DNA from: a virus
Reading direction: 5' to 3' (one strand)
DNA: 25,144 bases
Virus record (IMG/VR): IMGVR_UViG_3300017598_000680
Span: 1-25,144 of that record
Under the pieces are notes generated by a model. That model did no database searches. It had not been told where the DNA came from and saw only the letters and a list, made by a program, of their open reading frames with translations. Numbering within the stretch: position 1 is the first letter of the stretch; each line of letters opens with the position of its first letter. This document shows positions 9,547 through 24,055 of this stretch, piece by piece. The position numbers and the translations under genes were made by a program.

Positions 9547-9756
9547 TTATTGTCTGGGGGAGTAACAATACACCCACCTAGTCATACCGCACCAACAACG
9601 CTGTTCTTTTTCTACGGGAGCGTTATCTGGAGGTTTCTCTCCCGTGGAGTGGCTTGTCCAGCTCTGTCGGGTGTTTCCAGTATCAACCCATTGATGTGGA
9701 TTCCCGCATGCGCAAGAAAAACCAGATGCTGAATAAGGGTGGGGTTGCATAGTCAT
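9547..9756 (-). CDS. Small zinc-knuckle-like protein (69 aa)
   Basis: This is a 69-residue protein whose ATG (9754-9756) overlaps the stop of the SbcC gene as TAATG. It has two C-x-C pairs, SCACG (Cys 15 and 17) and RCWCG (Cys 54 and 56), separated by ~37 polar residues, which together could hold one zinc ion. It is rich in Trp, Ser and Pro and has no membrane segment. The tight coupling to SbcC and the preserved Cys pairs suggest a real gene. The family is not recognised. A second Met at residue 3 is an equally good start. Confidence 0.6.
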   Translation of the reverse strand: MTMQPHPYSASGFSCACGNPHQWVDTGNTRQSWTSHSTGEKPPDNAPVEKEQRCWCGMTRWVYCYSPRQ

Positions 9757-11894
9757 TAAAGCTGGATAACCCGGTCTGCTACCGCTGCATCAGCCTGCCG
9801 ATGGGATATTATTACCACTTGCTGACCTGCCTGAGACAGGGCCTGAGCCATCGCCATGCTGTTTTCATCGGTAGCCCCTGCCGTGACCTCATCCAGAAGC
9901 GAAACGCCCACAGGGGAGCGGATGGCCTCTGCCAGGGCCAATCTTACACCGACTCCCATGCAGGCTCTTTGAAACCCGCTGGCTGAAGCTATAGGAAGTT
10001 TTTTCCCGTCCTCCTCATAAAAGAATTTGGAGCCTTCAACCACGCTCAATTTTGAGATGGTTCCTCCTGTGCACCTGGAAACGAACTCGGAAGTGTAGGT
10101 AAGAATATTGGACCAAGTTCTGTCAATAAAGTCTTTGTGTGCCTTGGACAGATAAATACCAAGGTTGGCCAGGTTATTGGTTTTCCTTTGTTCGCGCCAT
10201 CTGTCTTTGTTGGCTCTCTCGGCAAGGTCAAAATCAGCTTTTTGTCTGGTATAGTCTTGGTATGCTGCAGCATAAGCAGCAGCCAAACTGGTTACCAAGC
10301 CGGTTGTTTCACGATGTGTATTAGTTAGTGCATGAACCTGCTCATTAGCAATGCCTAGTTCCCGCCTGGTAGGGCAGCCTGGTAAAGAGATTTTAGCCAG
10401 TTTTTCTTTTTCTTGCTTGAGCTGTGGACGTAACTGGTTAGCTTTCTCTACTGCTTGCAAATACTTGGACTCAGCAAGTCTAGCCGAGGATAGAGCGGCA
10501 TGGGCATCAGCAGCTTGCTTCTCAAGCTCGGGCAATGATCCATCTAGATGCAATTTTTGTACAGCGTTCTCAGATGCATGAATCCTTGTCTCCAGTTCTG
10601 TCATAGATTGCTCGGATCGCTCTGTACGATCTAAAATCTGCCCGTGCTTTTTCTTTTTTTCCGATAGTGACTCCAAAAGTTGTTCCTCTTCGTATACCGC
10701 AGCAGAATAACTGTCATAGTTTTCTTTAGCCTCTTCCGCCGATTTAATGGCTGCTTCCATAACGTCCGAGCTTTCAAAAGGGCGCATGCAAGTAGGACAG
10801 ATCGAACTTTCTGCCGCCGCATGGCAGACCTTGGCTCGCTCTTTCAGCTCTCCAGCCACACCCCGCATTTTTATAAGCTTGGTCATCTGGGCAGCCACTG
10901 ACTTAGCTGTAGGCAATTTACCCATAGCTTGTAATTCTGTACGCAACTGGCTCAGGTGATTGGTTTCCAATTCTTTATCAGTTTTAAGCTGCCGTAACAT
11001 AGCTTCATGGGTGTTTTTCTCTGTTATGGAGTTACTTAATTGTTGTACTGCCTGGCTTATACTCAACCAAGTCTTTTGTAACTCAGCAGTATTTTGGACA
11101 GGGGTTTCCATTCCCGTTTCAGCCTCGCCAAGGCGATCAGTCAGAGACTGTATGTGGGCTTTCGTTTCTGACTGAAGGGCCTGGGCAACGTAATGTTCTT
11201 TTACCTTGTCATTCAGCTCGGCAAGAAAAGTGGAGGCGGTTTGTATGTCCTCGTGATTGGCTGCCAATTCGATTTTGGCTTGCTCAAGCTCTACATATTG
11301 GTTATTCAGCTTGTCGGTAGCCTTGGTAATGTCTGCACGTAATGAAGGCAAATCATACTCTGGAAGAACTCCCAACTGTGCCACGATTTGTTGCTGACGG
11401 GCTCTTAACAGCTTCTGAATTGTCTCTATCAGCTCAGCCTTAGTTATTTGACCGATGATTTGATTCAGCCTTCCTACGCCAATGGTTAATATTGCACTGA
11501 CTTCGTCTTGAGGGGAGGTTCTGAGTTCCCCGAACAATTTGGCTGGCATTCCCAGCAGATCTTCCATGGCCGAAGTCACATTCGCTGGCCCGGTGGCTAC
11601 CAGTTTGCTCCCCTTCAGTAATTTGGCAGTAGTCAGTTTCCTGATAACAGTGTAGTTATCACTGCCTACAGAGAAAGACAAAGTAACAGCGGGTTTTGTC
11701 TTTGTACCTCTGCGCTGAATGACTTTTGCTCCCCCCGGCACAGAAGCAGAACCGAAAAAGGCATACAGAATAGCCTTGAATACTGTGGTTTTCCCTGCCC
11801 AGTTGTCCCCTACTATAAGGGTTTCTTGAGGAGAGAATGACAGCTCCAGTTCTTCATGGCGCATGAAATTGATCAAATGAAGAGTATTTAACAT
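9756..11894 (-). CDS. sbcC: SbcC/Rad50-like ATPase subunit of recombination nuclease
   Basis: This is a 712-residue SMC-like ATPase. The P-loop is G29-D-N-W-A-G-K35-T-T near the N-terminus. Residues ~180-360 and ~385-590 are long heptad-like coiled-coil arms around a zinc hook, C366-P-T-C369. The C-terminal lobe has the signature segment ASGFQR (638-643), Walker B SLLDE (D668, E669) and the H-loop His at 698 (IISHRQ). The ABC signature differs from cellular LSGGE/Q, but A/S-S-G-F-E/Q-K/R forms are, as I recall, usual in phage Rad50 homologues. With the SbcD/Mre11 subunit encoded at 12839-13885 it should form the end-processing nuclease complex, as T4 gp46 does with gp47. It is shorter than E. 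coli SbcC (~1050), mainly in the arms. Confidence 0.92.
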   Translation of the reverse strand: MLNTLHLINFMRHEELELSFSPQETLIVGDNWAGKTTVFKAILYAFFGSASVPGGAKVIQRRGTKTKPAVTLSFSVGSDNYTVIRKLTTAKLLKGSKLVATGPANVTSAMEDLLGMPAKLFGELRTSPQDEVSAILTIGVGRLNQIIGQITKAELIETIQKLLRARQQQIVAQLGVLPEYDLPSLRADITKATDKLNNQYVELEQAKIELAANHEDIQTASTFLAELNDKVKEHYVAQALQSETKAHIQSLTDRLGEAETGMETPVQNTAELQKTWLSISQAVQQLSNSITEKNTHEAMLRQLKTDKELETNHLSQLRTELQAMGKLPTAKSVAAQMTKLIKMRGVAGELKERAKVCHAAAESSICPTCMRPFESSDVMEAAIKSAEEAKENYDSYSAAVYEEEQLLESLSEKKKKHGQILDRTERSEQSMTELETRIHASENAVQKLHLDGSLPELEKQAADAHAALSSARLAESKYLQAVEKANQLRPQLKQEKEKLAKISLPGCPTRRELGIANEQVHALTNTHRETTGLVTSLAAAYAAAYQDYTRQKADFDLAERANKDRWREQRKTNNLANLGIYLSKAHKDFIDRTWSNILTYTSEFVSRCTGGTISKLSVVEGSKFFYEEDGKKLPIASASGFQRACMGVGVRLALAEAIRSPVGVSLLDEVTAGATDENSMAMAQALSQAGQQVVIISHRQADAAVADRVIQL

Positions 11895-12458: not shown

Positions 12459-12842
12459 TCACCAAACTCTACGGCAGCGCAGACTGAGAGATGGCACTGC
12501 TTTATTGAATAACCAATTCGCCCATTCAGCTGAGTATTTTTCCGGTGCCTTAGCTCGTTTGGCTCTATTGGCTGCTCTCTTTGTACATTTAGATACAGGT
12601 CTGTCTTTAGCCCGCGTTTCTGCTGCTTGCCCGTTTCGGCAAGAAACACATTTTCCAGAATGGCCGCGAGTTTCATATCTGGTAAGTGTGTCGTGTGTTA
12701 TTACAGACGTATGACCACACGTCAGGTTGAGTACCTCATATTTTGTTTCTCTGAGCTTATTCCCAACCTGCATTATCTTCAGTACCTTATTCTTACTGAC
12801 TACAGCATTGAGATAAAAAGGCCCACCTTTTTTATGTTTCAT
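12459..12842 (-). CDS. Zinc-ribbon-like protein (127 aa)
   Basis: The start ATG 12842 overlaps the SbcD stop as ATGA and follows CCGGAG at good spacing, which decides against the longer in-frame alternative at 12881. The 127-residue product has a strand-rich N-terminus, then a putative metal site TCGH (C42, H44) paired with KCVSC (C65, C68), and a long Lys/Arg/Ala-rich helix (~75-105), giving a basic, nucleic-acid-binding look. It could be a treble-clef or zinc-ribbon DNA-binding protein; HNH catalytic residues are not evident. Cotranslation with sbcD suggests a link to DNA processing, but no specific function can be given. Confidence 0.65.
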   Translation of the reverse strand: MKHKKGGPFYLNAVVSKNKVLKIMQVGNKLRETKYEVLNLTCGHTSVITHDTLTRYETRGHSGKCVSCRNGQAAETRAKDRPVSKCTKRAANRAKRAKAPEKYSAEWANWLFNKAVPSLSLRCRRVW

Positions 12843-13885
12843 TGAATTTCTCCGGTTGCCTCGATTAACAATTCTTCCCACAGATTGACCAGTTCAGGTC
12901 TGTTCTGCTTCAAATCCTCGCCTACTATTTTTGGGAGAGTCTCCATATTTTCTATGGTGGCCACTGTTTTGATTTCTTCTGCTTCTTTACGCCGCAGTCT
13001 AATGGCAAAAACTTCTGACGCCTTGTACAACTTACTGGCTGTCTTGAATCCTTGCCCCCTGGGAAGATCGTCATCAATATCCAGAAATTTTTCTTCAGGT
13101 TCTTCCGGCAGGCGGGATAACGGACCTTCCCATAGAAGTGCGGTTTTCGATAGCGTGTGCTTACTCTCATACTCCCCTGTCTCCGTGTCATAGATAATGA
13201 CACGCTTATCAGATATATCGTCAAACCCGGTGGGATGCACGTTACCAATAGTCACAACCCTGCCATTGTGTCTCTTCGTCGGGTTGTGTTCATGGCCCAT
13301 GAAGATCCGATGGAACACGCCCAGTAGTATGTCTGTTGCCGGTGCTGTCAGATTGAGAGACGTGTCTTGCAGTGCCTCAAAGTTCAGGTTGTAGTTACAA
13401 TGGAGACAAAGTACATTCCATTTGTTCGAGTTTTTGGCAATGGCTTGGGCCTCTAGCAACGCCGTCTCGAATAGACTTTGGTCTGCTACATGCGGTACAA
13501 ACACAAAGAAAGTATTACCTACTTCAAGCTGAAATGTAGAAGCCTCACCCCACCTACCTATAAGAATCCTGTCTCCGTACATCTTGTGAAGCAGTTCAAG
13601 AGAAGAAACTCTATCGGCTCTGTTACTTATGTCATGATTGCCTGCCAATACAATATCAGTGTGCTGAATCAGCTCCATGGCTTGTTTAATAAAGGCTTCT
13701 GTATTAGAGTATTGATCAAACAAATCACCCAGACAGAATGCCAGCATATCTTTTTGTTTTACTGTAGTCAGCAGGTAATGCAAATGGTTTAAACTGGCTT
13801 CTCTCAACCTTTCTGCAGAAGCATGAGTAGTGTTGGCTAAGCGATTCAAGCCTATATGTGGGTCGGAATAGATAAGAATTTTCAT
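12839..13885 (-). CDS. sbcD: SbcD/Mre11-like nuclease subunit
   Basis: This is a 348-residue calcineurin-like metallophosphoesterase with every core motif in order: D8-x-H10 (SDPHIG), G-D54 (LGDLFD), G-N83-H84-D85, H162 (LHCNY) and G-H198-E-H200. This two-metal nuclease works with the Rad50-like subunit at 9756-11894 to trim and open DNA ends; T4 gp47 and bacterial SbcD are the comparators. Residues ~240-348 form the capping and Rad50-interacting region, Glu- and Lys-rich. ATG 13885 overlaps the stop of the resolvase gene (ATGA). The size is close to Mre11 cores and T4 gp47. Unusually, three small genes separate it from its partner subunit. Confidence 0.93.
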   Translation of the reverse strand: MKILIYSDPHIGLNRLANTTHASAERLREASLNHLHYLLTTVKQKDMLAFCLGDLFDQYSNTEAFIKQAMELIQHTDIVLAGNHDISNRADRVSSLELLHKMYGDRILIGRWGEASTFQLEVGNTFFVFVPHVADQSLFETALLEAQAIAKNSNKWNVLCLHCNYNLNFEALQDTSLNLTAPATDILLGVFHRIFMGHEHNPTKRHNGRVVTIGNVHPTGFDDISDKRVIIYDTETGEYESKHTLSKTALLWEGPLSRLPEEPEEKFLDIDDDLPRGQGFKTASKLYKASEVFAIRLRRKEAEEIKTVATIENMETLPKIVGEDLKQNRPELVNLWEELLIEATGEIQ

Positions 13886-14355
13886 ATCAGTCCTATTAGC
13901 GCCTGTTCTATAGTCGGGGCCAGTTTTATAGCTTCCAGTCTATTGAGCCTCTTTTCTGCCAGTTTCTTTTCATACAATAAATCTCCAGACCATACTTCAT
14001 ACCCTGAAACACCTTGAAACACCACCCAATAACCTGCCCCAGCCCTGGCCCACAATCTGGCGAAAGTCAACTGAGCGGAATTATTGAATACCGCAGAGAA
14101 ACAAGACACCAAGGAGATATGAGTTGAGGAATATTTCGTTTCTATGACTGTGGCATGTCCGTTCTTCACAATGAGATGGTCACCTGGCTGAGCAGGTAAA
14201 AATGTATTGGCTGCGTGTGTGTCATAGAACCGATGGTAAACCAAGGGCTCGGTGGCCATTCTGGCATTGAAATAATCAGCCACATCTGTTTCCAGTTTCT
14301 TCCACCCAGGCACAGCAGCCTTGAATCCTCGACGGGGCTTCTTTTTCTTTGCCAT
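13882..14355 (-). CDS. RecU-like Holliday junction resolvase (PD-(D/E)XK nuclease)
   Basis: This is a 157-residue basic protein beginning MAKKKKPRRG. The nuclease core is D59 in QPGDHLIV, then E72-T-K74 in VIETKYS, with an early acidic residue E22 on the first helix: the PD-(D/E)XK layout. The preceding segment YHRFYDT, the following conserved S and the later helix AQLTFARLWARAGAGYWVVF match the arrangement of RecU-type resolvases and related phage nucleases (helix followed by an A/G-G-Y-W-V strand). It would cleave four-way junctions or branched replicating DNA, paralleling T4 gp49. It lies directly upstream of sbcD with an ATGA overlap, and its own start overlaps the MerR-like gene. A general restriction-like nuclease role is the alternative. 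Confidence 0.75.
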   Translation of the reverse strand: MAKKKKPRRGFKAAVPGWKKLETDVADYFNARMATEPLVYHRFYDTHAANTFLPAQPGDHLIVKNGHATVIETKYSSTHISLVSCFSAVFNNSAQLTFARLWARAGAGYWVVFQGVSGYEVWSGDLLYEKKLAEKRLNRLEAIKLAPTIEQALIGLI

Positions 14356-14615
14356 TACTCTTCGCCTTCTTCAAGTGGCCGGTATTCCAAAAACCCATCC
14401 CGCCTTTTGACCACATAAGTAGCTCTCATGAACACCTCTATCTGTGTTCTGGTGTAGTACCTATGACCTCGTGGAGTTCGCATGGCTATAAGAAAGCCAT
14501 TCTCGTCCCATCTGGTGAGTGTGCGATGGCTTACCCTGAGAATCTTTCTCACACACCCGGCAGGAAAGCGGTCTATTTCCGGAGTGCCTTGACTGTTATC
14601 GTATCCGTTAGTCAT
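14355..14615 (-). CDS. MerR-like helix-turn-helix protein (86 aa)
   Basis: The start ATG 14615 overlaps the exonuclease stop (ATGA) and follows TGGGGGAAG, so I chose it over an in-frame start at 14633. Of 86 residues, ~17-63 form a winged helix-turn-helix of MerR type: FPAGCVRKIL (first helix), VSHRTLTRWDENGFL (recognition turn) and RTPRGHRYYTRTQIEVF (wing and last helix), matching the family pattern V-S-x-R-T-L-R-x-W-E-x-x-G then T-P-x-G-H-R-x-Y. There is no ligand-binding or coiled-coil effector domain, so it resembles excisionase-like or minimal DNA-binding forms. Its position among recombination enzymes does not reveal its target; regulation of this operon is possible. Confidence 0.75.
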   Translation of the reverse strand: MTNGYDNSQGTPEIDRFPAGCVRKILRVSHRTLTRWDENGFLIAMRTPRGHRYYTRTQIEVFMRATYVVKRRDGFLEYRPLEEGEE

Positions 14616-15313
14616 TCTTCCCCCAGAATCCAATCAACAGTAAGCTGCAAGTCAGGCCGCATTCTATCTGCGTTGTTTTTCATCCACCGAGCCCAGCTTA
14701 ATGGCACTCTTTCTATAGGAAGTCCAGTGTATTTACCAATAGGCATGATCTCATAAACTTGCGGAGTCTTGAGTTCTTCGGCAAATTCTTTTGGGGATTT
14801 TTTGTGCCTGAGACACAGAGGAAGTAGCAAATCTACTGTACCTATGCAGTCAGCTACAGCCCCGTGAGCACCTGTGAGAGTTTTGCCATTGAGCGATTTA
14901 TACGCATCACCTAGTTTTTTAGACTCTAGTTCAGGCTCGTATCTGTATAATATGTCCAACACATCAAGATGCTCATACCTACCAAGCAGTTTTAAATTCA
15001 TATTCTGAAGACAAGCATCCACCATGACAGAGTCATAGGTTGAGTGATTAAACCCACAAAGTGTTACTTGGTCCGGGGGTGGTAAGAGTCTGTGAAAAGT
15101 CCACAGAGCATACATATAGTCAGGGTGGCCTTGAACAGTCTCGTTGGTTATACCGTGTACGTTTGATGCCTCTTCAGGGATTGGCATACATGGATCACAC
15201 AAGCTGTTCATCAGTACCCTGTCGGTGTCTATTAAACCTATCTGTACGGGCCTATCTTTGAGAGGATCAGTCCCAGTAGTTTCAAGGTCGTAACAATAAA
15301 GTTGTTTAGTCAT
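14612..15313 (-). CDS. DnaQ-like 3'-5' exonuclease
   Basis: This is a 233-residue DEDD-family exonuclease. Motif ExoI is D9-L-E11-T-T-G, ExoII is N-H-S-T-Y-D94, and ExoIII is H150-G-A-V-A-D155 in the DEDDh form, as in DnaQ and RNase T. Residues ~189-212 (MPIGKYTGLPIERVPLSWAR) are a short C-terminal module of the DUF3820 type often found appended to or near such exonucleases. It may proofread, degrade displaced strands, or recycle host DNA. It overlaps the N4 gp49-like gene by eight bases with GGGGAAAG as ribosome site, so it belongs to the same transcript as the polymerase. The polymerase has its own exonuclease domain, so this enzyme is extra. Confidence 0.9.
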   Translation of the reverse strand: MTKQLYCYDLETTGTDPLKDRPVQIGLIDTDRVLMNSLCDPCMPIPEEASNVHGITNETVQGHPDYMYALWTFHRLLPPPDQVTLCGFNHSTYDSVMVDACLQNMNLKLLGRYEHLDVLDILYRYEPELESKKLGDAYKSLNGKTLTGAHGAVADCIGTVDLLLPLCLRHKKSPKEFAEELKTPQVYEIMPIGKYTGLPIERVPLSWARWMKNNADRMRPDLQLTVDWILGEE

Positions 15314-15661: not shown

Positions 15662-18600
15662 CTATTTTGCGGTAGTCAAGAATTCTGTAATAGCCCCATG
15701 ATCAAGAGCCACTTCTTGTTTAGTTCCCCAAGATGCCACCCCTATCTCAAGCTCTGCTTCCATTGGTATGGCATGCCCTGGTGGGGTAATTGCCATGATC
15801 TCTGCCATTTCCATGGCATAGTCAGCTGCAGCTGCCTTAGGAACACAGCTTGCAAGTTCATCATAAATGGGCATGGTAGATCGCAGTTTGTACTTCTCTG
15901 CCAGGTTTTTTCTGGCCACCATGGAAAGCACAATCTTGAGAATATCCGCTGCACACCCCTGAGCGGGCATGTTGCAAGCTTGTCGTTCAGCCCGGCTTCT
16001 CAGCTTGAGATCTTCCGAGTAGATGTTGTCAGACACATGCCGACGATTCCCGTAAGCTGTCTTAACGTAACCGTGAATCCTGGCATACTCAGCTACTTCT
16101 CTCTGCCAGGGCTCTATTCGGGCATACAGACTCATGATACTGCTCATAATCTGCTCTGCCAGGGGTAGTTCGATTATCAGATTCTCAGCAAGAGTCGATG
16201 GGCCTCCCCCGTAGGTAACCGTAAAATTTGTAGCCTTGCCGTACTTGTTGCGGATTTCTTTCAAAGCCGCCGCCAGTTTCTTATCTTCCCCTGTAGACCA
16301 TGCCTTGTATTCTTCGTAAGTAATAGACCTGTTCAGCTCCGGGTACCCCATTCTGGGCAAAAGAAGTTCAGCTATGCGCCCGGCAGTGACAGTGTGCGGC
16401 CCTTTGTGATCAGCCCCCAGGTAGGCATCCGTCATGACCGGATCTTTGCTTTCAGAGGCAATCAGGCGCAGTTCCTGGCCATTGAAATCCAGGCATACCC
16501 AGACATATTCTTCCTGCCAAGGTAAGAACGCTCTGCGTATTTTTGCGTCGTCTTTACTGGATACCTGTAATACGTTAGGGGAGGTTCCTGAAGGTCTGCG
16601 GGTGACTGTCCCACAATTTTTTAACTGCGGGTGAATCAGACCATCTTTAGGGCTGACCCATAATGGATAACTTTTGTAGTACAGACTGTTGTTCTGCTGT
16701 GCCTTGTTAATGGACAGATAGCTGTTTAGTACCGGGAATCTCCAATCACCTTCTTGTACATCGTGCACTAAAGCAGGAAGAATCGCTTTGTTGCCTGTAA
16801 CTGCCGCGCCAGGCAGGTTATAAGTATCTCTGAATGAGCCTGTAGTTACCTTACCACGCCGTCTGACAGGTAAGCTCAGCTTGCCATAGAGCAGTTGTTG
16901 CATTTGATCCGGGCTGCCAAAGTTCAGGGCATCTCCATAAGTGGCAACCTTTACGTCACCAACTGAAGCTAAAGCCTCTAAGCAGACAGCCTCCAATGCT
17001 TCATACTCTGCGCCAGAGCGTTTTTTAGGGGTAAGCCTATGGGAGGCTTCACAAAGAAGAGAGAAAAATTTCTTTACTTTGGGGTCCTTGTCAACCTCAG
17101 CCTCGTGATCGAATCTGTAATCACTAATCCACTTTTTGCCCTCTTTCTCTATAGTCAGACTTGAGCCAAGTGCTCTTAATACCTTGGTCAAATTATTTGC
17201 CGAAGGCACAAACTTGGTTTGTTCAACCTCTTCAGAATAAGGAACATAATAGGAACCCCGCCAAGCTTTATTCCACAGCTTGGTACGTTCCTCATTCAGC
17301 ATAAATTTACGAATCTCTTTTGTAGTAGAAAATATTGGGACAGTGGGCTCTTTTATCGGCCCACCTATTTCTCCCGCCTTAGCAAATACATCTACTTTTT
17401 TCAAAGCCTCGTACTGTTTAAGGATTTTTTCATCAGGCAGCTGTTTATGTTTTAATTCCGCTGTCTCCCAATATAGGTCCAATAATCTGGTAGCACCGGG
17501 AGTAATTGAGGCAACGTCTCTTTGCATAACGTGGTCTTGTAGAGACCTCCTTATCTTAGCAGTGAGGTTGTCCACCAACTCCGCATCTTCTTTCTGTGCT
17601 GCCTCAAGAAAGGGCAAGTCAATTTTAGTGCCGTGAATAAAGGTGTTTACATTGTCTCTGACATGTTGTGTCTCGTTATCTTGGTAAAACTCCCAGGTGT
17701 CCTCCAGCTGCATGATGATTTTGAACAGATCAAACAGATGTGCGGTAACTAATGAATCATCACAACCATAACTCAGTACATGGGCTGCACTAAGCTCGTT
17801 CATCGGGCTACCTTGCGTTACTTCCTGATAGGTTTGCTGAGAATAGTTAAACCACTCTTTGGCCAACCCCTTGAGATGGGGGTCCATATTCTCATCCACA
17901 TAACTGGACATGATAGCGGTATCAAACGGCAATGGCAGTTCTTGATCTAGATCAAGTTTTGCTACCGTCAGCTCAAAATTAGCGTTCTGAACTACCTGTG
18001 TTTTCGAGTGGCCTAAGCATTGCAGAACGTAAGTTGACCAGCCACCTATCAGATTCTCAGTATCAGCATGACCGAATGATGCATAACCCACCTTTTGGTA
18101 ATTATCCCCATGGCACCAAGAGATACCTGTAATTTTCTGGGACAAGACATCCACAAACTCCCGATTCTTGGCAGCTATCTTATAAGGCTGGTGCTTCAGA
18201 GTGTCATATGATTCAAAGTCATATGAAACAAAAGAGCCGACCGCAACCCCATTCATTTCAGTAACCAGTTTCTCATGATCCTCCATGGTATACAGTGTCT
18301 GGACAGGCAGATGCTTATCAAAATCTGCTAACAAATCCATAGCTCCAATCTCTTGCAGAAGCCAAGAGATCTTTTCACGGGATGGTATTCTTACTTTCCA
18401 TTTCGGCTTGAGTATTTCACCGGCTCTCCCGCCGTAACAAACTTCAGGGTGTAGTTTGGCCAGTCTGTAAGACAAAGCAAACTCTTCACGTTTGTTCAGC
18501 AGAGTCTCCAGGTTTTTATCCTGTGTGGCTTTGTAGGCCACTTCCAGATCCTCCCAGCTCCCGGTCTGTACACACTCCTCTATTTGCTGCATGCCGTCTA

Positions 18601-19276
18601 TACCGTACTCGGTAAACATTTTCTCCCATGCTTTTGGGCCTAGTCCGTATACTCCTCTGTAACCGTCTGAAGAGTCTCCTACCACAGCCTTATACAGCCC
18701 CACCAACTTAACGGGGACATTGTTGACTAGCGTATTAATCTTGAATAGGTATGAGCCAGACTCCCCATACATCTGATCACGGCACATGACATGGATGTTT
18801 TTATCAGCTAACTGTACAAGATCAGCATCTATGGTCTTAATAAGCAACTGTCGTGTAGGGGAAAGCTTTTCACACAGCAAGGCAATGACATCATCGGCTT
18901 CTTGGCCGGGAACCCAGACATTCTTTACTCCGAGATATGCCATGAATCGTTTAGCTTCTTCCTGAAGAGCAAAGCGTTCTTTCTTTAGCTCTGAGGGTTC
19001 ACTGGCAGATCTTGCTTTACGCAGAGCCTTGTATTCAGGATAGAATCCGAATCGATACTCATTTCCAGCATCCCAGACAGCAATGACACGCCTTGGGGAA
19101 ACGCGCTCGAACAAGGGAACAAGTTCTTTATGCAAAAACTCTGTTAGACCTGCTTTCCAGGTGGCATGAAGCTTCCCTTTACTATCAGCTATGCCATTCT
19201 CAGTATTGGCTGTGCTGGCTCTCCTTATTAATAAGCCACGCACATCAAGAATGTATAATGCTTCGTCTTTATTCAT
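15662..19276 (-). CDS. polA: Family A DNA polymerase with fused 5' nuclease and 3'-5' exonuclease
   Basis: This is a 1204-residue Pol I-type polymerase with three domains. Residues ~5-300 are a 5' nuclease: ILDVRG, EYKALR, PGQEADDVI, TIDADLVQL, then the H3TH region AVVGDSSDGYRGVYGLGP. Residues ~345-510 are the 3'-5' exonuclease: YDFES, QNANFE435 and Y503-G-C-D-D507. The polymerase has motif A D930-F-N-G-Q-E-L-R, motif B around KATNFTVTYGG, and motif C I-Y1138-D1139-E1140. E. coli Pol I is 928 residues. Its Exo III Asp (501) nearly matches D507 here, but motif A is ~225 residues later, so ~210 extra residues lie between ~515 and ~780. Most phage family A polymerases lack the 5' nuclease, so one protein can synthesise, proofread and remove primers. 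Odd catalytic residues are listed in findings. ATG 19276 lies eight bases inside the preceding gene. Confidence 0.95.
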   Translation of the reverse strand: MNKDEALYILDVRGLLIRRASTANTENGIADSKGKLHATWKAGLTEFLHKELVPLFERVSPRRVIAVWDAGNEYRFGFYPEYKALRKARSASEPSELKKERFALQEEAKRFMAYLGVKNVWVPGQEADDVIALLCEKLSPTRQLLIKTIDADLVQLADKNIHVMCRDQMYGESGSYLFKINTLVNNVPVKLVGLYKAVVGDSSDGYRGVYGLGPKAWEKMFTEYGIDGMQQIEECVQTGSWEDLEVAYKATQDKNLETLLNKREEFALSYRLAKLHPEVCYGGRAGEILKPKWKVRIPSREKISWLLQEIGAMDLLADFDKHLPVQTLYTMEDHEKLVTEMNGVAVGSFVSYDFESYDTLKHQPYKIAAKNREFVDVLSQKITGISWCHGDNYQKVGYASFGHADTENLIGGWSTYVLQCLGHSKTQVVQNANFELTVAKLDLDQELPLPFDTAIMSSYVDENMDPHLKGLAKEWFNYSQQTYQEVTQGSPMNELSAAHVLSYGCDDSLVTAHLFDLFKIIMQLEDTWEFYQDNETQHVRDNVNTFIHGTKIDLPFLEAAQKEDAELVDNLTAKIRRSLQDHVMQRDVASITPGATRLLDLYWETAELKHKQLPDEKILKQYEALKKVDVFAKAGEIGGPIKEPTVPIFSTTKEIRKFMLNEERTKLWNKAWRGSYYVPYSEEVEQTKFVPSANNLTKVLRALGSSLTIEKEGKKWISDYRFDHEAEVDKDPKVKKFFSLLCEASHRLTPKKRSGAEYEALEAVCLEALASVGDVKVATYGDALNFGSPDQMQQLLYGKLSLPVRRRGKVTTGSFRDTYNLPGAAVTGNKAILPALVHDVQEGDWRFPVLNSYLSINKAQQNNSLYYKSYPLWVSPKDGLIHPQLKNCGTVTRRPSGTSPNVLQVSSKDDAKIRRAFLPWQEEYVWVCLDFNGQELRLIASESKDPVMTDAYLGADHKGPHTVTAGRIAELLLPRMGYPELNRSITYEEYKAWSTGEDKKLAAALKEIRNKYGKATNFTVTYGGGPSTLAENLIIELPLAEQIMSSIMSLYARIEPWQREVAEYARIHGYVKTAYGNRRHVSDNIYSEDLKLRSRAERQACNMPAQGCAADILKIVLSMVARKNLAEKYKLRSTMPIYDELASCVPKAAAADYAMEMAEIMAITPPGHAIPMEAELEIGVASWGTKQEVALDHGAITEFLTTAK

Positions 19277-19484
19277 GATCAGTATTGTTTCCTTCTTCTT
19301 GGGCTGCTGACAATATCACAGTGATTGTCTCAAGAAGGTCTAATAGATCGTAACTGATTATAGAGGCTTTTCTAAGAATGTCTTTACGCGCTATTTCTCT
19401 TGCCGTCTCTTTGATCTTATTGGTCTCATCAATCGCGGCATACAAATATTCTGCCAGTTTTTCCAGTTTTTCTTTATCGCTCAT
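19269..19484 (-). CDS. Small helical hypothetical protein (71 aa)
   Basis: This 71-residue protein has an excellent ribosome site, AAGGAGGGGTT before ATG 19484. It is almost entirely amphipathic helix (MSDKEKLEKLAEYLYAAIDE onward), highly charged, with a Leu/Ile-rich second half (around YDLLDLLETITVIL) and no cysteines. It could be a coiled-coil adaptor or dimeric small protein. It overlaps the upstream gene by 11 bases and the polymerase gene by eight, so it is translated together with them. No family is recognised. Confidence 0.65.
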   Translation of the reverse strand: MSDKEKLEKLAEYLYAAIDETNKIKETAREIARKDILRKASIISYDLLDLLETITVILSAAQEEGNNTDHE

Positions 19485-19740
19485 AACCCCTCCTTGATCC
19501 CCCGTTTATAACCTGTTGTACTTCGGCTTTCGCCCAGGTTGCAAAAGATGCACAAGTAGAGTTTCTTTCTGCCCCTACTGGATGTTGGCCAAGTTTTTTA
19601 GCAATAACTCGATACCGTAAGTTATCAGTTTCTGCTTGCCCGGAATAACTTAGATATTCAGGCCCTTTCGCGAGTACCTCTCGAACATTGTCTTTGTTAT
19701 CTGTGTATCTCTTTCCAATTTTGATATGCGCTTTTTTCAT
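19474..19740 (-). CDS. Hypothetical phage protein (88 aa)
   Basis: ATG 19740 lies nine bases after GAGGAG, so I prefer it to the in-frame upstream start at 19755, which falls in a hairpin. The 88-residue product shows alternating strands: KIGKRYTDNKDNVREVL, PEYLSYSGQAETDNLRYRVI, then a block G-A-E-R-N-S-T-C-A-S-F-A-T-W-A-K. The layout of a small beta domain with a final R-N-x-T-x-x-S-F-A-x-W-A segment looks like a conserved small phage protein, but I cannot name the family. It is led by a strong intercistronic stem-loop (19755-19776). Confidence 0.65.
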   Translation of the reverse strand: MKKAHIKIGKRYTDNKDNVREVLAKGPEYLSYSGQAETDNLRYRVIAKKLGQHPVGAERNSTCASFATWAKAEVQQVINGGSRRGYER

Positions 19741-19754
19741 GCCAGATCTCCTCA

Positions 19755-19776
19755 ACCCCTCCCTTACGGGAGGGGT
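19755..19776 (-). other. Strong intercistronic RNA stem-loop
   Basis: On the minus-strand transcript, ACCCCTCCC pairs with GGGAGGGGT (nine base pairs) over a four-base loop GTAA. It starts eight bases beyond the stop of the 19785-20495 gene and ends a few bases before the GAGGAG ribosome site of the next gene. No T run follows, so it is a weak terminator at best; attenuation, mRNA processing or end protection are alternatives. Confidence 0.7.
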
Positions 19777-19784
19777 CTCCTTGT

Positions 19785-20495
19785 TTAACCAGTGTACTTA
19801 CTGAACTCCATTGGCGTGAATGCGGTGGCTCCGCTGCCAACCTCACCAGCAATGCTAAACCGAGTGACAACGGCACTCGGCAATTGGTCATCCATTATGA
19901 TGCTGCCGATGTGTACCGACAGTCTTGGTCTGGAGCTTTTTGGGACAGACAGAATAATCATAGTCCCATCGTGCTCCCCTCCATGAACTTTGATCATCGT
20001 GTCCAGATACGGACTGATCTGTGGAGTCCAGCCCCTTGCCCTCCAAGTATCAAGAATTTGAGAGACCGGCTCGCCCTTCACGGTGGTCACCTGATCGTAG
20101 GTGTAGAAGTAATCTCTACCAGGATCTCTATCAGGCAACCCGTTGTTGTAGACAAACTTCTGTTTGGTTCCCCCATCCTGAATAAAGCCGTAGAAAGTAG
20201 TCCCAAGGTTAAGCCCATCTCGCGTGTTGTAAGACCCACGGTGCAGACGGACTATGGGAAATGCCCCAAATCCAGACAGATCCAAGCCTTCAAATCCAAG
20301 TTCCTGGGCTTTCTGCATAGCCCCAACCATTCCAGATGCCGCTACAGGCGGTTCAGCCGGTGCCACTGCAGTCTGTTGTGACACAGCTGGTACTGCGGGA
20401 GCTGCGGGAGCTATACTTACAGAGGGCACAGTGACAGCAGCCTCAACCGGGGGAGGCGGAGCAATAGGGGTTACATCACCAGTAGGAAGTGCCAT
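19785..20495 (-). CDS. Pro/Ala-rich-headed phage protein, possible DNA-binding replication accessory
   Basis: This 236-residue protein starts at ATG 20495 after GAAGGAAAAACT. Residues ~8-55 are a low-complexity Pro/Ala/Val linker; the folded part (~56-236) has FGAFPIVRLHRGSYN, then DRDPGRDYFYTYDQVTT, a helix QILDTWRARGW, and strands ending in RLSVHIGSIIM. The mostly beta structure with interspersed aromatics could be an OB-like single-strand-binding protein, and it lies between primase and polymerase with its own promoter, as an abundant binding protein would. That is speculation: there is no diagnostic motif, and typical SSB proteins have an acidic tail, which is absent here. Confidence 0.6.
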   Translation of the reverse strand: MALPTGDVTPIAPPPPVEAAVTVPSVSIAPAAPAVPAVSQQTAVAPAEPPVAASGMVGAMQKAQELGFEGLDLSGFGAFPIVRLHRGSYNTRDGLNLGTTFYGFIQDGGTKQKFVYNNGLPDRDPGRDYFYTYDQVTTVKGEPVSQILDTWRARGWTPQISPYLDTMIKVHGGEHDGTMIILSVPKSSRPRLSVHIGSIIMDDQLPSAVVTRFSIAGEVGSGATAFTPMEFSKYTG

Positions 20496-20799: not shown

Positions 20800-23589
20800 C
20801 TAAAATGCAGAAATATCAATGCCTTTCTTTGCCATCTCAGGCAAAGAGAGCTTGATTACAGAACGTGACAGCGTCATTTCCTTGTCTATTACCGTGCCAC
20901 AATAGTACGGTTCACTCCGCAGCAGCAGCAACCATTGTTTTGCTGAGGCTACAGGTTTTCTTTCTCTGATAGAAGTTATATAGTTTTGCAGATGGGCGAA
21001 CACGGGGGGCACATCCAGATACAGAAACCCATCTACTTTCTTGAGATGTCTGCCATTGATACTGCTCAGTACAGAGCCGTCCCTTATCAGCATCACCAAC
21101 TCCCCAAGCCGATCAAAAAACATATCTATTTCAGTGCTGTATCCAGAGATTTCCACCTCAGCTTGAACATCTGCGATTCGATTCATAAAAGCTTGACGCA
21201 TGTTGGCAATCTCTGGCTGCAGATTGAGCTTCAGTTCATTGGTAAGTACAAGATCCAAATAATCTAGCCCGGTGCCTATAACCTGTCTCACGTAGTTCTG
21301 CCGTATGGAATATGTTTTCGGCACCACTTTTTTCCAACTGTCCATGCGGCCTTTTACCCACTCTTCCCTAATCCCCATTGCCCCAATCATCAGGACTTTT
21401 GCCAGTTTAATTAAATCCTCAGGATGCTCCTGCAGGTACTCCATGTGGTCAGCCCTTGTCTGGATAGAAGGTTCTGCCATCATGACCTTGTACGCTCTGT
21501 CAACAAGTGCTGGAAGCTCCATAGCATGTTCTGACAAGACACATACAGGAGAAGTCAGGTAATAATAATCCACCACAGCTCCGAACTTGTGAATCTTGGA
21601 CCCCTCTCCGCTACCTGCAAGCCTACCTCGGGCCTCTGGAGAGTTGTTGAAAGACTTCTTCAACATTTCCCCGATCTGCCCATAACGATTGCGCCTGGCC
21701 ATACTGGCTTTGTTATACTCATCCAATACCCTTGGGACTGTCGTGGTGGAGCATAGCGTTTGAATCAGGGCGAAATCAGTAATGGAGGTTAAAGTTGGAG
21801 GAGCATAAGTCTCATAGTCAACACCGTTCAGAAGACAAAATACACTGGCTGTTCGTGTCTTGCCTGACCCACGCCCTCCCCATAAACTCAGCAAAGGAAA
21901 CTGAGAATAGAGCCCCATCAGGTGGGATTTCAGGTGGCAAGCTACTACCCAACCCAGTATGGGGGCTATTACTTCCGGGAGGTTAAGTTCAAACAGGTGC
22001 CTAAGCGCAGTCTCTACTGATTTATCAGCAACCTCTGGAGCATAGACAGTCTTGAATTCCGGCATGGCCGCATGTTTTGCATTGACCGATGATTCCAGAA
22101 TATGGGTATCCCGAACAAGAAACTTATTCATGCTCATGTTTTGTTCTACCCAGGTATAGCGCGGCTTATTATTTATCACATCTCTATGTAGCCCCAGTGA
22201 ACCTACCACCTCCTGTTGATCCAACTTATCCAGGTCCCTAAGTACAAAATGCTTTATGTTCTGTATGTCGTTGTCTGTTGCTGTAACTTTAAGGTTCCCC
22301 ATCCCTTCAACAGCTTTAACCAGATTGCCTCTGGAAGACCAACAAGCCTCGCCTAATCTGATAACTCCCAGGAATTCGTGGTTGACTTCTACTCTGGCAA
22401 TTATCAGGGCACGTTTCGTTTCTTTTTTCTCTGCGTCGGTAACAAGCACAGAACCTGTAGGGTTTATCAAAAACGATGTCAGTCGTCTTTCCTCTCGCTC
22501 ATTCTGAGCGTAATATCCATCAGGTTTTTCTACTACATCGTACTCGTCTTTAATAGTGGACGTATGTTCAAGCTGGCAGCCTTGGCACGGTGAATTTGAT
22601 AGGATAGACCGCATAGCTGGGCAGGCAAACTGCATGTCAGCTCTGGTCTGATGGTATGCAAGCTGTGCTCTAAGGTGGTTTCTGCGGGAAGAGAAGTTTG
22701 GGTAAGCTGAGCTGTTAAGGTTTGTTGCTGCGCGGTCTATATAAGTAGTCTGGATATTTACCGGGGTGCCACTCCTGGCTAAATAAATGCTGAGTTGCAT
22801 AGCAGCCTGATTGAAAGTGGAGGCTTGTTTGACAGACCCGGATACTATGTCCTCCACACACTGCGGGGCTTGCAATTGAAACTGGGCCAGGTGCACATCG
22901 GCTATGCAAGAGTCTCTACGCTTCCTGTTCTCATGCTTCACAAACTCTTGCGCCCAGCTAAAATGCCCAGCTATCGTGGGATTGAGATTAGGCGGGGGCT
23001 GCATACTGGCAAAAAGCACCCCAGTCCTGGGCTGCCCGGCCAGCTGTTTGTAAACCTCCTTGGTCATGGCTCGCACTTCGTCAGCAAACACTCTGACTTT
23101 GTACTTACCGTCATCCCGCTTTACATCAGCTAAGCGACATAAGTTTCCCTTGCCGCCGCTGTACGGCTGAAAGTCCAAGCCTGGGACATACAGACGCATA
23201 GCCATGGCCCGGAGCAGCCTGGGTAGCTGCTTCTGGGGCCTGCCATTACTGTATAGTTTGTTATGTAGGTAAAAATGAAAGCCTTTAGCCCCTGAAATAT
23301 ACACTTCGTAGGCTGAGGGCGGCACCCCAGCTGCATCCAAATGGGCAAGAAAGAGTCTGGCAGACTCTATGGATTCTGTCAGATCGCTAGAATCTATGTC
23401 TGCGTAAAAATGTCCTCGATAGGCAACTGAATCGGGGTCCGTATCATCGTCTATGACCTTATCCAAGGCCAGAAAGCTGACGCGAACAGCCCCCTTCTTC
23501 TTCAGCTCTTTGTGCACATTGTCAGTATCTTCCGCCAGTTCCCATTTAGACCTCTCAGAGGTTTGGTAATATCTGTAGAACTGGCGCAT
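20800..23589 (-). CDS. Primase-ATPase (helicase) fusion, AEP type
   Basis: This is a 929-residue replication protein; ATG 23589 follows GAGGAG by seven bases, which decides against the upstream TTG at 23604. The N-terminal part is an archaeo-eukaryotic primase: Y-A-D64-I-D66 (metal-binding D-x-D), S99-G-A-K-G-F-H105 (nucleotide-binding S-G-x-K-G-x-H), and a later LCRLADVKRDD segment. Cys 323, 335, 338 and His 342 form a likely zinc site. The C-terminal half has a P-loop G571-G-R-G-S-G-K577-T578 and a Walker B-like V-L-D623-E624-Y, with LPALVDRAYKVM beyond. This is the common phage/plasmid layout of a primase joined to an AAA+-like helicase or helicase loader. It should initiate DNA synthesis with the polymerase; whether it unwinds DNA itself or the SNF2-like protein assists is not decidable here. 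Confidence 0.88.
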   Translation of the reverse strand: MRQFYRYYQTSERSKWELAEDTDNVHKELKKKGAVRVSFLALDKVIDDDTDPDSVAYRGHFYADIDSSDLTESIESARLFLAHLDAAGVPPSAYEVYISGAKGFHFYLHNKLYSNGRPQKQLPRLLRAMAMRLYVPGLDFQPYSGGKGNLCRLADVKRDDGKYKVRVFADEVRAMTKEVYKQLAGQPRTGVLFASMQPPPNLNPTIAGHFSWAQEFVKHENRKRRDSCIADVHLAQFQLQAPQCVEDIVSGSVKQASTFNQAAMQLSIYLARSGTPVNIQTTYIDRAATNLNSSAYPNFSSRRNHLRAQLAYHQTRADMQFACPAMRSILSNSPCQGCQLEHTSTIKDEYDVVEKPDGYYAQNEREERRLTSFLINPTGSVLVTDAEKKETKRALIIARVEVNHEFLGVIRLGEACWSSRGNLVKAVEGMGNLKVTATDNDIQNIKHFVLRDLDKLDQQEVVGSLGLHRDVINNKPRYTWVEQNMSMNKFLVRDTHILESSVNAKHAAMPEFKTVYAPEVADKSVETALRHLFELNLPEVIAPILGWVVACHLKSHLMGLYSQFPLLSLWGGRGSGKTRTASVFCLLNGVDYETYAPPTLTSITDFALIQTLCSTTTVPRVLDEYNKASMARRNRYGQIGEMLKKSFNNSPEARGRLAGSGEGSKIHKFGAVVDYYYLTSPVCVLSEHAMELPALVDRAYKVMMAEPSIQTRADHMEYLQEHPEDLIKLAKVLMIGAMGIREEWVKGRMDSWKKVVPKTYSIRQNYVRQVIGTGLDYLDLVLTNELKLNLQPEIANMRQAFMNRIADVQAEVEISGYSTEIDMFFDRLGELVMLIRDGSVLSSINGRHLKKVDGFLYLDVPPVFAHLQNYITSIRERKPVASAKQWLLLLRSEPYYCGTVIDKEMTLSRSVIKLSLPEMAKKGIDISAF

Positions 23590-23590
23590 T

Positions 23591-24055
23591 TCATTGCTCC
23601 TCAATTGTCGTTATAAAGAGGGCATACGCCTCTTCCGGAGTCAGTCCCTGTGAAAGACACAAAGTAGTGATATCAAGAAATTTCCCCTCTTTCCAGAAGC
23701 CAGCCTTACCGCCGGGGAGAATTCTCAGTGGGTTGCCGGTAAACCTTATCAGCCCCTCTGTAAGAGGGAGACCCACTCGTGTTTTCGTGTCTAGCAAAAG
23801 GAATTTGTAACCCGCATAGACCATAAGGTTACCTGCTGCGGCCTGTCTAGTGCAAGGAGGATATCCATCCAGTGCCCAACCTCCTAAGTCTGGCCCAAGT
23901 CTGCGAAGATGAAAGGTGTGCAGCCAGTGTACTTGAAACAGGTTCCAAAAGAACAAGTCTGTGGACAACCTGTGCAAAGCCTCTTTAGAGTAGGTGTATA
24001 ACTCTTTTGATTTTTCGGTAGGCAGCAGCCTTTCTCCTGAAGCCAGTGTAAGCAT
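23591..24055 (-). CDS. Hypothetical protein (154 aa)
   Basis: I do not recognise this family. The 154-residue product starts at ATG 24055, with AGGGGAAAA ~12 bases upstream, and ends just before the primase ATG, so the two are probably cotranslated. It is rich in Leu, Trp, Tyr and Gly, with FFWNLFQVHWLHTFHLRRLG (~35-54), GGWALDGYPPCTRQAAAGN (~58-76), a strand block YKFLLLDTKT and a helical end with LTPEEAYALFITTIEEQ. No catalytic motif, signal peptide or clear transmembrane segment is seen. Tight coupling to the primase suggests a replication accessory. Confidence 0.65.
   Translation of the reverse strand: MLTLASGERLLPTEKSKELYTYSKEALHRLSTDLFFWNLFQVHWLHTFHLRRLGPDLGGWALDGYPPCTRQAAAGNLMVYAGYKFLLLDTKTRVGLPLTEGLIRFTGNPLRILPGGKAGFWKEGKFLDITTLCLSQGLTPEEAYALFITTIEEQ

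Follow-up and report, generated by a model that had tools for sequence, protein, structure and literature searches.

Architecture of the polymerase and its thumb insert

The window, a 25,144-base virus record (IMG/VR record IMGVR_UViG_3300017598_000680), encodes on its minus strand a 1204-residue family A DNA polymerase in which a 5′ nuclease, a 3′–5′ exonuclease region and a polymerase domain are fused in one chain (15662..19276, ATG start) and in which the thumb carries a single large insert, residues 576–780 (16937..17551). The 5′ nuclease spans residues ∼1–290 (18407..19276). Pfam 5_3_exonuc_N (PF02739) matches residues 29–165 above cut-off (E 5.4e-16), 5_3_exonuc matches residues 195–280 below cut-off, and the domain holds D11, D69, E126, D128, D129, D150, D152, D201 and D204, with D69 replaced by Glu in three of the 37 rows of alignment A9. 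The exonuclease (residues ∼350–530, 17687..18229), which Pfam DNA_pol_A_exo1 matches below cut-off over residues 421–518, holds D353, E355, E435, Y503 and D507; E435 is Asp in Salmonella Pol I and Glu in all 36 phage rows of A9. The remainder of the polymerase domain, residues 781–1204 (15665..16936), is defined by Pfam, by structural alignment of the core and by its catalytic residues: DNA_pol_A (PF00476, E 2.4e-52) matches the protein in two stretches, the better one at residues 1006–1184, and the carboxylates D930, E935, D1139 and E1140 are identical in 37 of 37 rows. The catalytic roles given to all these residues, and the Pol I motif names used here, are those usual for the family.

The Pfam matches and the nine acidic residues of the nuclease bear out the initial annotation, which had described three Pol I domains with a fused 5′ nuclease whose motifs appeared intact. 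We think it very probable that the phage uses this enzyme as its replicative polymerase. The initial annotation also held that phage family A polymerases usually lack the 5′ nuclease, and PMC9069017 states the same, but relatives with the fusion occur in named phages (see below).

Aligned with the chromosomal Pol I of Salmonella, the window polymerase has 200 additional residues (12 + 188) between G549 and N785, and nearly all of them form one block within the thumb, residues 576–780, a delimitation based on alignments with relatives and Salmonella Pol I and on the predicted fold. MAFFT places one stray 12-residue match within the block, leaving runs of 564–691 and 704–779. The block begins once the first thumb helix has ended (∼576) and stops just short of NFGSPDQMQQLLY (residues 785–797, 16886..16924), which corresponds to the FNxxSPxQL thumb motif of bacteria (hhalign E 5e-9). 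The best stretch of the NCBIfam Pol I model PRK05755 covers residues 7–578, and the break therefore falls at the insert start found by alignment. A single insert of ∼210 residues between the exonuclease end and the thumb motif had been proposed from the initial reading; its contiguity holds, the extra length not being spread as small loops, but it begins after the first thumb helix and not at the exonuclease end.

Gains elsewhere are smaller. There are 30 additional residues between D930 and R1009, which include a second insertion at residues 972–999 (16280..16363) identified by alignment, and 20 between 785 and 882. In the rest of the stretch from residue 69 to residue 1179 no segment gains more than 11 residues, two adjacent lengths being unreliable where the Salmonella row of A9 is misaligned at exonuclease motif I; the thumb segment is unaffected. 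Outside the compared segments, the annotated Salmonella open reading frame (ORF) starts ∼50 residues later and the window C-terminus is 17 residues longer.

The protein resembles bacterial Pol I (E. coli, Taq) in its 5′ nuclease–exonuclease–polymerase order and in its catalytic residues, and differs in the ∼200 extra thumb residues, the ∼30 extra residues between D930 and R1009 and a Glu at one exonuclease position that is Asp in Pol I. Its predicted core aligns with Klenow (1kfd) at Z 31.5 (root-mean-square deviation (rmsd) 2.5, 537 residues). The top VIA-align row, DNA polymerase I of Thermus phage G20c (7r0k; Z 32.2, rmsd 4.7, 590 aligned), is tied with Klenow within 1 Z and is a smaller enzyme (target length 676). 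T7 gp5, which has 704 residues against 1204 and is not known to carry a 5′ nuclease, has an insert of its own at the matching place in the thumb; in the T7 sequence, read by eye, it follows the first thumb helix and precedes the FNPSS motif. This insert is the thioredoxin-binding domain, which we take to be residues 258–333. The initial annotation had likened the window insert, as a possible processivity or partner-binding element, to that loop but called it larger. Compared by position, length and charge rather than by profile or superposition, the two agree in position and differ in length, with ∼205 residues in the window and ∼76 in T7, and in charge (see below).

AlphaFold2 predicts residues 300–1204 with a mean predicted local distance difference test (pLDDT) score of 85.9 and a predicted template modelling (pTM) score of 0.77. 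The insert with its borders (residues 562–786), which lies within the stretch 505–800 that the initial annotation had singled out for structure prediction, comes out ordered at a pLDDT of ∼90 when folded alone (mean 90.4, pTM 0.67). The predicted insert consists of nine helices and two short strands (681–685 and 776–780), and residues 631–640 fall below a pLDDT of 50. Foldseek returned no match to the insert at E ≤ 0.001 in the PDB (64 matches, best E 1.4) or in BFVD (89 matches, best E 0.53), and VIA-align on Foldseek's 330 chains, 329 of which aligned, gave a best Z of 4.1. The structure matches listed include neither T7 polymerase nor polymerase gamma, an absence that shows neither difference nor novelty. 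For the predicted model, then, the result is an absence of match and not proof of a new fold. We regard the polymerase as a family A enzyme of ordinary type, whose novelty lies in the large, acidic, helical thumb insert together with a linked orphan gene.

Distribution of the insert among relatives

A tblastn search of 50,697 phage records with the polymerase matched 833, 31 of them with at least 80% query coverage. The latter include SHOU24- and K450-type Vibrio phages and the Pseudomonas phages Lana, PMBT3 and UAntarctica, whose polymerases are full-length relatives (30–33% identical) with the same insert and the same 236-residue protein family encoded upstream. The fused relatives in Lana, PMBT3 and UAntarctica are already annotated as ‘DNA polymerase I’. 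The term ‘DNA polymerase’ occurs 0 times in the main text of PMC8421299 (PMBT3) and PMC7368026 (Lana), and the literature searched, limited to open-licence papers available in part, yielded no description of the present insert. In IMG/VR, a scan with the single polymerase protein gave no match and a scan with an alignment gave 31 loci; among the best 80 of 452 from a scan with another alignment, 69 match the 5′ nuclease region only and the closest relative is L044 (49% identical).

The length of the segment corresponding to residues 576–785 separates these relatives into groups. The 31 long rows of A9, among which SHOU24 appears twice (as the identical L003 and L018), have 161–233 residues there, and the Vibrio phage polymerases of the SHOU24/K450 type have 231–233. 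Five distant fused relatives (L039, L040, L047, L048 and L050) have 87–116 residues; L041, L042, L049 and L010, in which the 5′ nuclease lies apart, have 92, 92, 73 and 90; and Salmonella Pol I has 20. The N-terminal part of the insert (∼585–675, 17252..17524) is mostly absent from the five short-insert rows of alignment A10, and the C-terminal part (∼676–780, 16937..17251) is roughly aligned with the shorter insert of the distant relatives. A9 omits L015, L019, L026, L028, L029 and L043 (near-copies, intein-like or cut off), the split genes of L041, L042, L049, L056 and L010, and L004 and L005, which are the same phages as L031 and L030. Insert lengths measured later for L015, L019, L026, L028 and L029 are 188–194 residues, and the broken frame of L056 gives no usable value.

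We built a tree of 48 rows from the polymerase core without the insert, comprising 30 long-insert rows, nine short-insert rows (with L041, L042, L049 and L010 restored) and nine bacterial Pol I sequences as outgroup. The 30 long-insert rows form one clade with a Shimodaira–Hasegawa-like approximate likelihood ratio test (SH-aLRT) value of 98, and the nine short-insert rows fall outside it. Three insert-length labels require two changes on this tree, the minimum possible. The long insert is thus a clade trait. It would have arisen in the phage lineage and grown from ∼70–115 to ∼160–230 residues; because the tree comes from a quick search in which long branches are flagged and has no insert-free phage polymerases among its rows, we infer the direction and the stepwise course of this growth.

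Several relatives depart from the window polymerase in other respects. The 5′ nuclease and polymerase occupy separate ORFs in L041, L042, L049 and L010 (in L049 as judged from the match range only), the two being adjacent genes in Pseudoalteromonas phage KB12-38, a natural Pol I split or fusion. The L026 polymerase (1524 residues, otherwise close to L034) has 318 extra residues (∼996–1313, L026:8986-9939) between the KG and NFG of the O-helix motif; the segment ends in VHNC and is intein-like, and Pfam and NCBIfam gave no intein match to it. The polymerases of L045 and L007 exceed their relatives in the exonuclease region, with ∼150 and 42 extra residues, respectively, lying between E435 and D507. 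The sole match in a scan of bacterial and archaeal genomes, L043, is a contig of a Desulfobacteraceae metagenome-assembled genome (MAG), with a polymerase copy at the contig end and a relative of the 236-residue protein upstream; it may be a phage contig that was binned into this MAG.

Possible roles of the insert

The gene for the 236-residue protein lies upstream of the polymerase on the same strand (19785..20495, minus strand). When the window neighbours were compared by blastp with the ORFs of 40 loci, in which Lana, PMBT3 and SHOU24 are each present twice, relatives of this protein appeared in 29, always upstream of the polymerase and on its strand. With a family profile it is detected in all 33 long-insert records, against two of 10 others (L042 and L047). 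The protein is an orphan: it has no sequence match in PHROG or the PDB, the window member has no NCBIfam match, and the family has only stray single-member Pfam matches.

We searched 25 of the 33 long-insert records, some of which may be fragments, for clamps and thioredoxin, and searched these 25 plus four short-insert records for single-stranded DNA-binding protein (SSB). The beta clamp PF00712 was found in none of the 25 (positive control found in 10 of 14 genomes), and the same holds for thioredoxin PF00085 (control, 13 of 14). SSB PF00436 was found in 0 of 29 records (control, 10 of 14), as was PF10991 in a search run without a positive control. PF02916, likewise searched without a control, appears once in 25 records, below cut-off and in a 1426-residue frame. 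With no recognisable clamp or phage thioredoxin, some other processivity device, from phage or host, would be needed. Our guess, from the position of the 236-residue protein and the absence of a known SSB, is that this protein might be the phage SSB.

The charge of the insert also bears on its role. Counted as a net sum over residues 562–786, and not as a surface distribution, it comes to +1 for the window and lies between −5 and −15 for all 30 relatives examined (25 long, five short), whereas residues 258–333 of T7 gp5 sum to +6. Judged from sequence, such a charge speaks more for contact with a protein than for a basic DNA clamp.

The interpretation that we favour, and to which we give about an even chance, is that the insert is a partner-binding, processivity-type thumb module that serves as a docking platform for a replisome protein. 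In this view the ∼200-residue block, flanked by the first thumb helix and the SPxQM helix, would be a single ordered and largely helical unit on which a replisome protein docks, much as happens at the thumb insertions of T7 polymerase and polymerase gamma. Docking could raise processivity or couple the polymerase to partners at the fork, and the strongest candidate for the partner is at present the orphan 236-residue protein encoded just upstream. We infer partner binding, a role in processivity and the identity of the partner; what suggests docking is where the insert lies, that it is predicted to be ordered, that it is acidic and that no clamp was recognised in the records searched. According to PMC7699545, insertions in the thumb are the binding sites for processivity factors in T7 and human polymerases, and in T7 the tail of the SSB attaches to the thioredoxin-binding domain. 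The large thumb insertion of mitochondrial polymerase gamma serves a processivity factor in the same source, and we liken the window insert to it by that description rather than residue by residue.

Several observations weigh against this interpretation. The profile of the 236-residue family was built from the window, from 21 of the same 33 long-insert records and from L043, so that the contrast with the other records is partly circular; because of this make-up, the absence of the family from distant phages may be failed detection. The 33 records also include near-copies (the L017 and L029 polymerases are identical) and are not independent. In a co-evolution test on 22 of the 27 loci tried (near-copies and two loci without SbcD were dropped), insert and 236-residue protein distances show a partial r of 0.13 beyond the polymerase core, a value reached in 165 of 2000 permutations and not significant, and the 236-residue protein tracks SbcD (0.38, 0/2000) and the 5′ nuclease (0.22, 46/2000) more strongly than it tracks the insert. 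The insert itself diverges fast, since used alone in tblastn it matches only six of the 50,697 phage records at E ≤ 10 (best E 0.9). A host clamp or host thioredoxin could, moreover, serve the phage.

A stronger version of the proposal is rather unlikely in our estimation: the insert, its fold unsolved so far, would together with the 236-residue protein (an unrecognised SSB or clamp-like protein) make up a processivity system that the phage itself encodes and that has no relation to thioredoxin, to sliding clamps or to the accessory subunit of polymerase gamma. The phage clade, whose named members have records of ∼78–88 kilobases, would add another, larger, acidic type of thumb insertion with a linked orphan gene. 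It allows a concrete test of whether such phages have a processivity partner of their own, given that no clamp or thioredoxin gene is recognisable in the records searched. A single polypeptide combining a fused 5′ nuclease with proofreading and perhaps high processivity would, in addition, have practical appeal for amplifying DNA.

The same thumb position can be read differently. The insert might be a built-in clamp that closes over the duplex product and raises processivity without a partner; its location resembles that of insertion 1 of plant organellar polymerases, which is described in the literature as lysine-rich and thought to face DNA, and a self-contained device would fit the lack of a clamp in the 25 records. 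The negative charge of 30 of 30 relatives, as a net sum over the sequence, is unfavourable for wrapping DNA, and we consider this explanation improbable.

It is similarly unlikely that the insert acts as an internal brace, positioning the fused 5′ nuclease relative to the polymerase and so coupling flap removal to synthesis. The 5′ nuclease is fused in 31 of 31 long-insert rows of A9, and four of the nine short-insert rows in the tree (L041, L042, L049 and L010) have nuclease and polymerase in separate frames or genes, but the remaining five short-insert rows are fused as well. The predicted model starts at residue 300, so an interface between nuclease and insert lies outside it.

Sequence comparison raises a further alternative, internal duplication, in which the insert would hold a tandem copy of the thumb FNxxSPxQL helix unit and would mainly be an enlarged thumb. 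A thumb profile built from 23 regions (22 bacterial, one Salmonella) of 31 proteins, eight having been dropped (one without a suitable ORF and seven without the motif), matches residues 672–760 of the insert, at the FxPTxKQL stretch, over 25–26 columns (score 22.8–23.0, P 0.0016–0.0018). None of 200 column shuffles reaches this score (maximum 16.4), the reversed sequence scores 11.8, and among 38 sliding windows along the polymerase those outside the thumb score 17.7 or less. Windows containing the genuine first thumb helix score alike, however (20.4–22.5), the true motif scores 50.4, and a generic helix-cap motif could account for 25 columns. The two phage copies, compared directly with each other, show no significant match (P 0.11–0.19), and short-insert relatives fail to match the bacterial profile (13.3; 23 of 200 shuffles as high) in a test on six rows, L042 being dropped where the cutting motif was not found. 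On balance we consider a duplication origin unlikely.

That the insert is a tolerated expansion without a specific role is the least plausible account, very improbable in our judgement, for although the segment varies from 161 to 233 residues and long-row inserts are only 16–36% identical to that of the window, the insert is ordered in prediction, is kept in all long-clade rows and includes positions, Y677, F689 and G781 among them, that do not vary across 26 of 26 long rows.

Other features of the locus

Two short ORFs lie between the polymerase and the gene for the 236-residue protein, both on the minus strand: one of 71 residues (19269..19484) and one of 93 residues from a TTG start, or 88 from ATG (19474..19755). 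The initial annotation had named the 71- and 88-residue proteins, along with the 236-residue one, as candidates for complex prediction with the insert. We rejected the two small proteins as partners, as relatives were found in 0 of the 40 loci (no blastp match at E 1e-2 in any). Between the 236-residue gene and the 88-residue ORF, an inverted repeat with 8-base arms (19756-19775), CCCCTCCC-GTAA-GGGAGGGG on the minus strand, lacks a T run.

Beyond the 236-residue gene, the minus strand encodes a 934-residue primase-like protein assigned to PHROG 16345 (20800..23604). On the other side of the polymerase lies a separate DnaQ-like 3′–5′ exonuclease of 233 residues (14612..15313, minus strand), with relatives in 26 of the 40 loci; it is overlapped by the gene for a 92-residue protein with a MerR-type helix-turn-helix (14355-14633), which has a relative in one locus of the 40 (L012). 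An SbcC- and SbcD-like pair follows on the polymerase strand (9756-11894 and 12839-13885), and relatives of the SbcD-like protein occur in 35 of the 40 loci.

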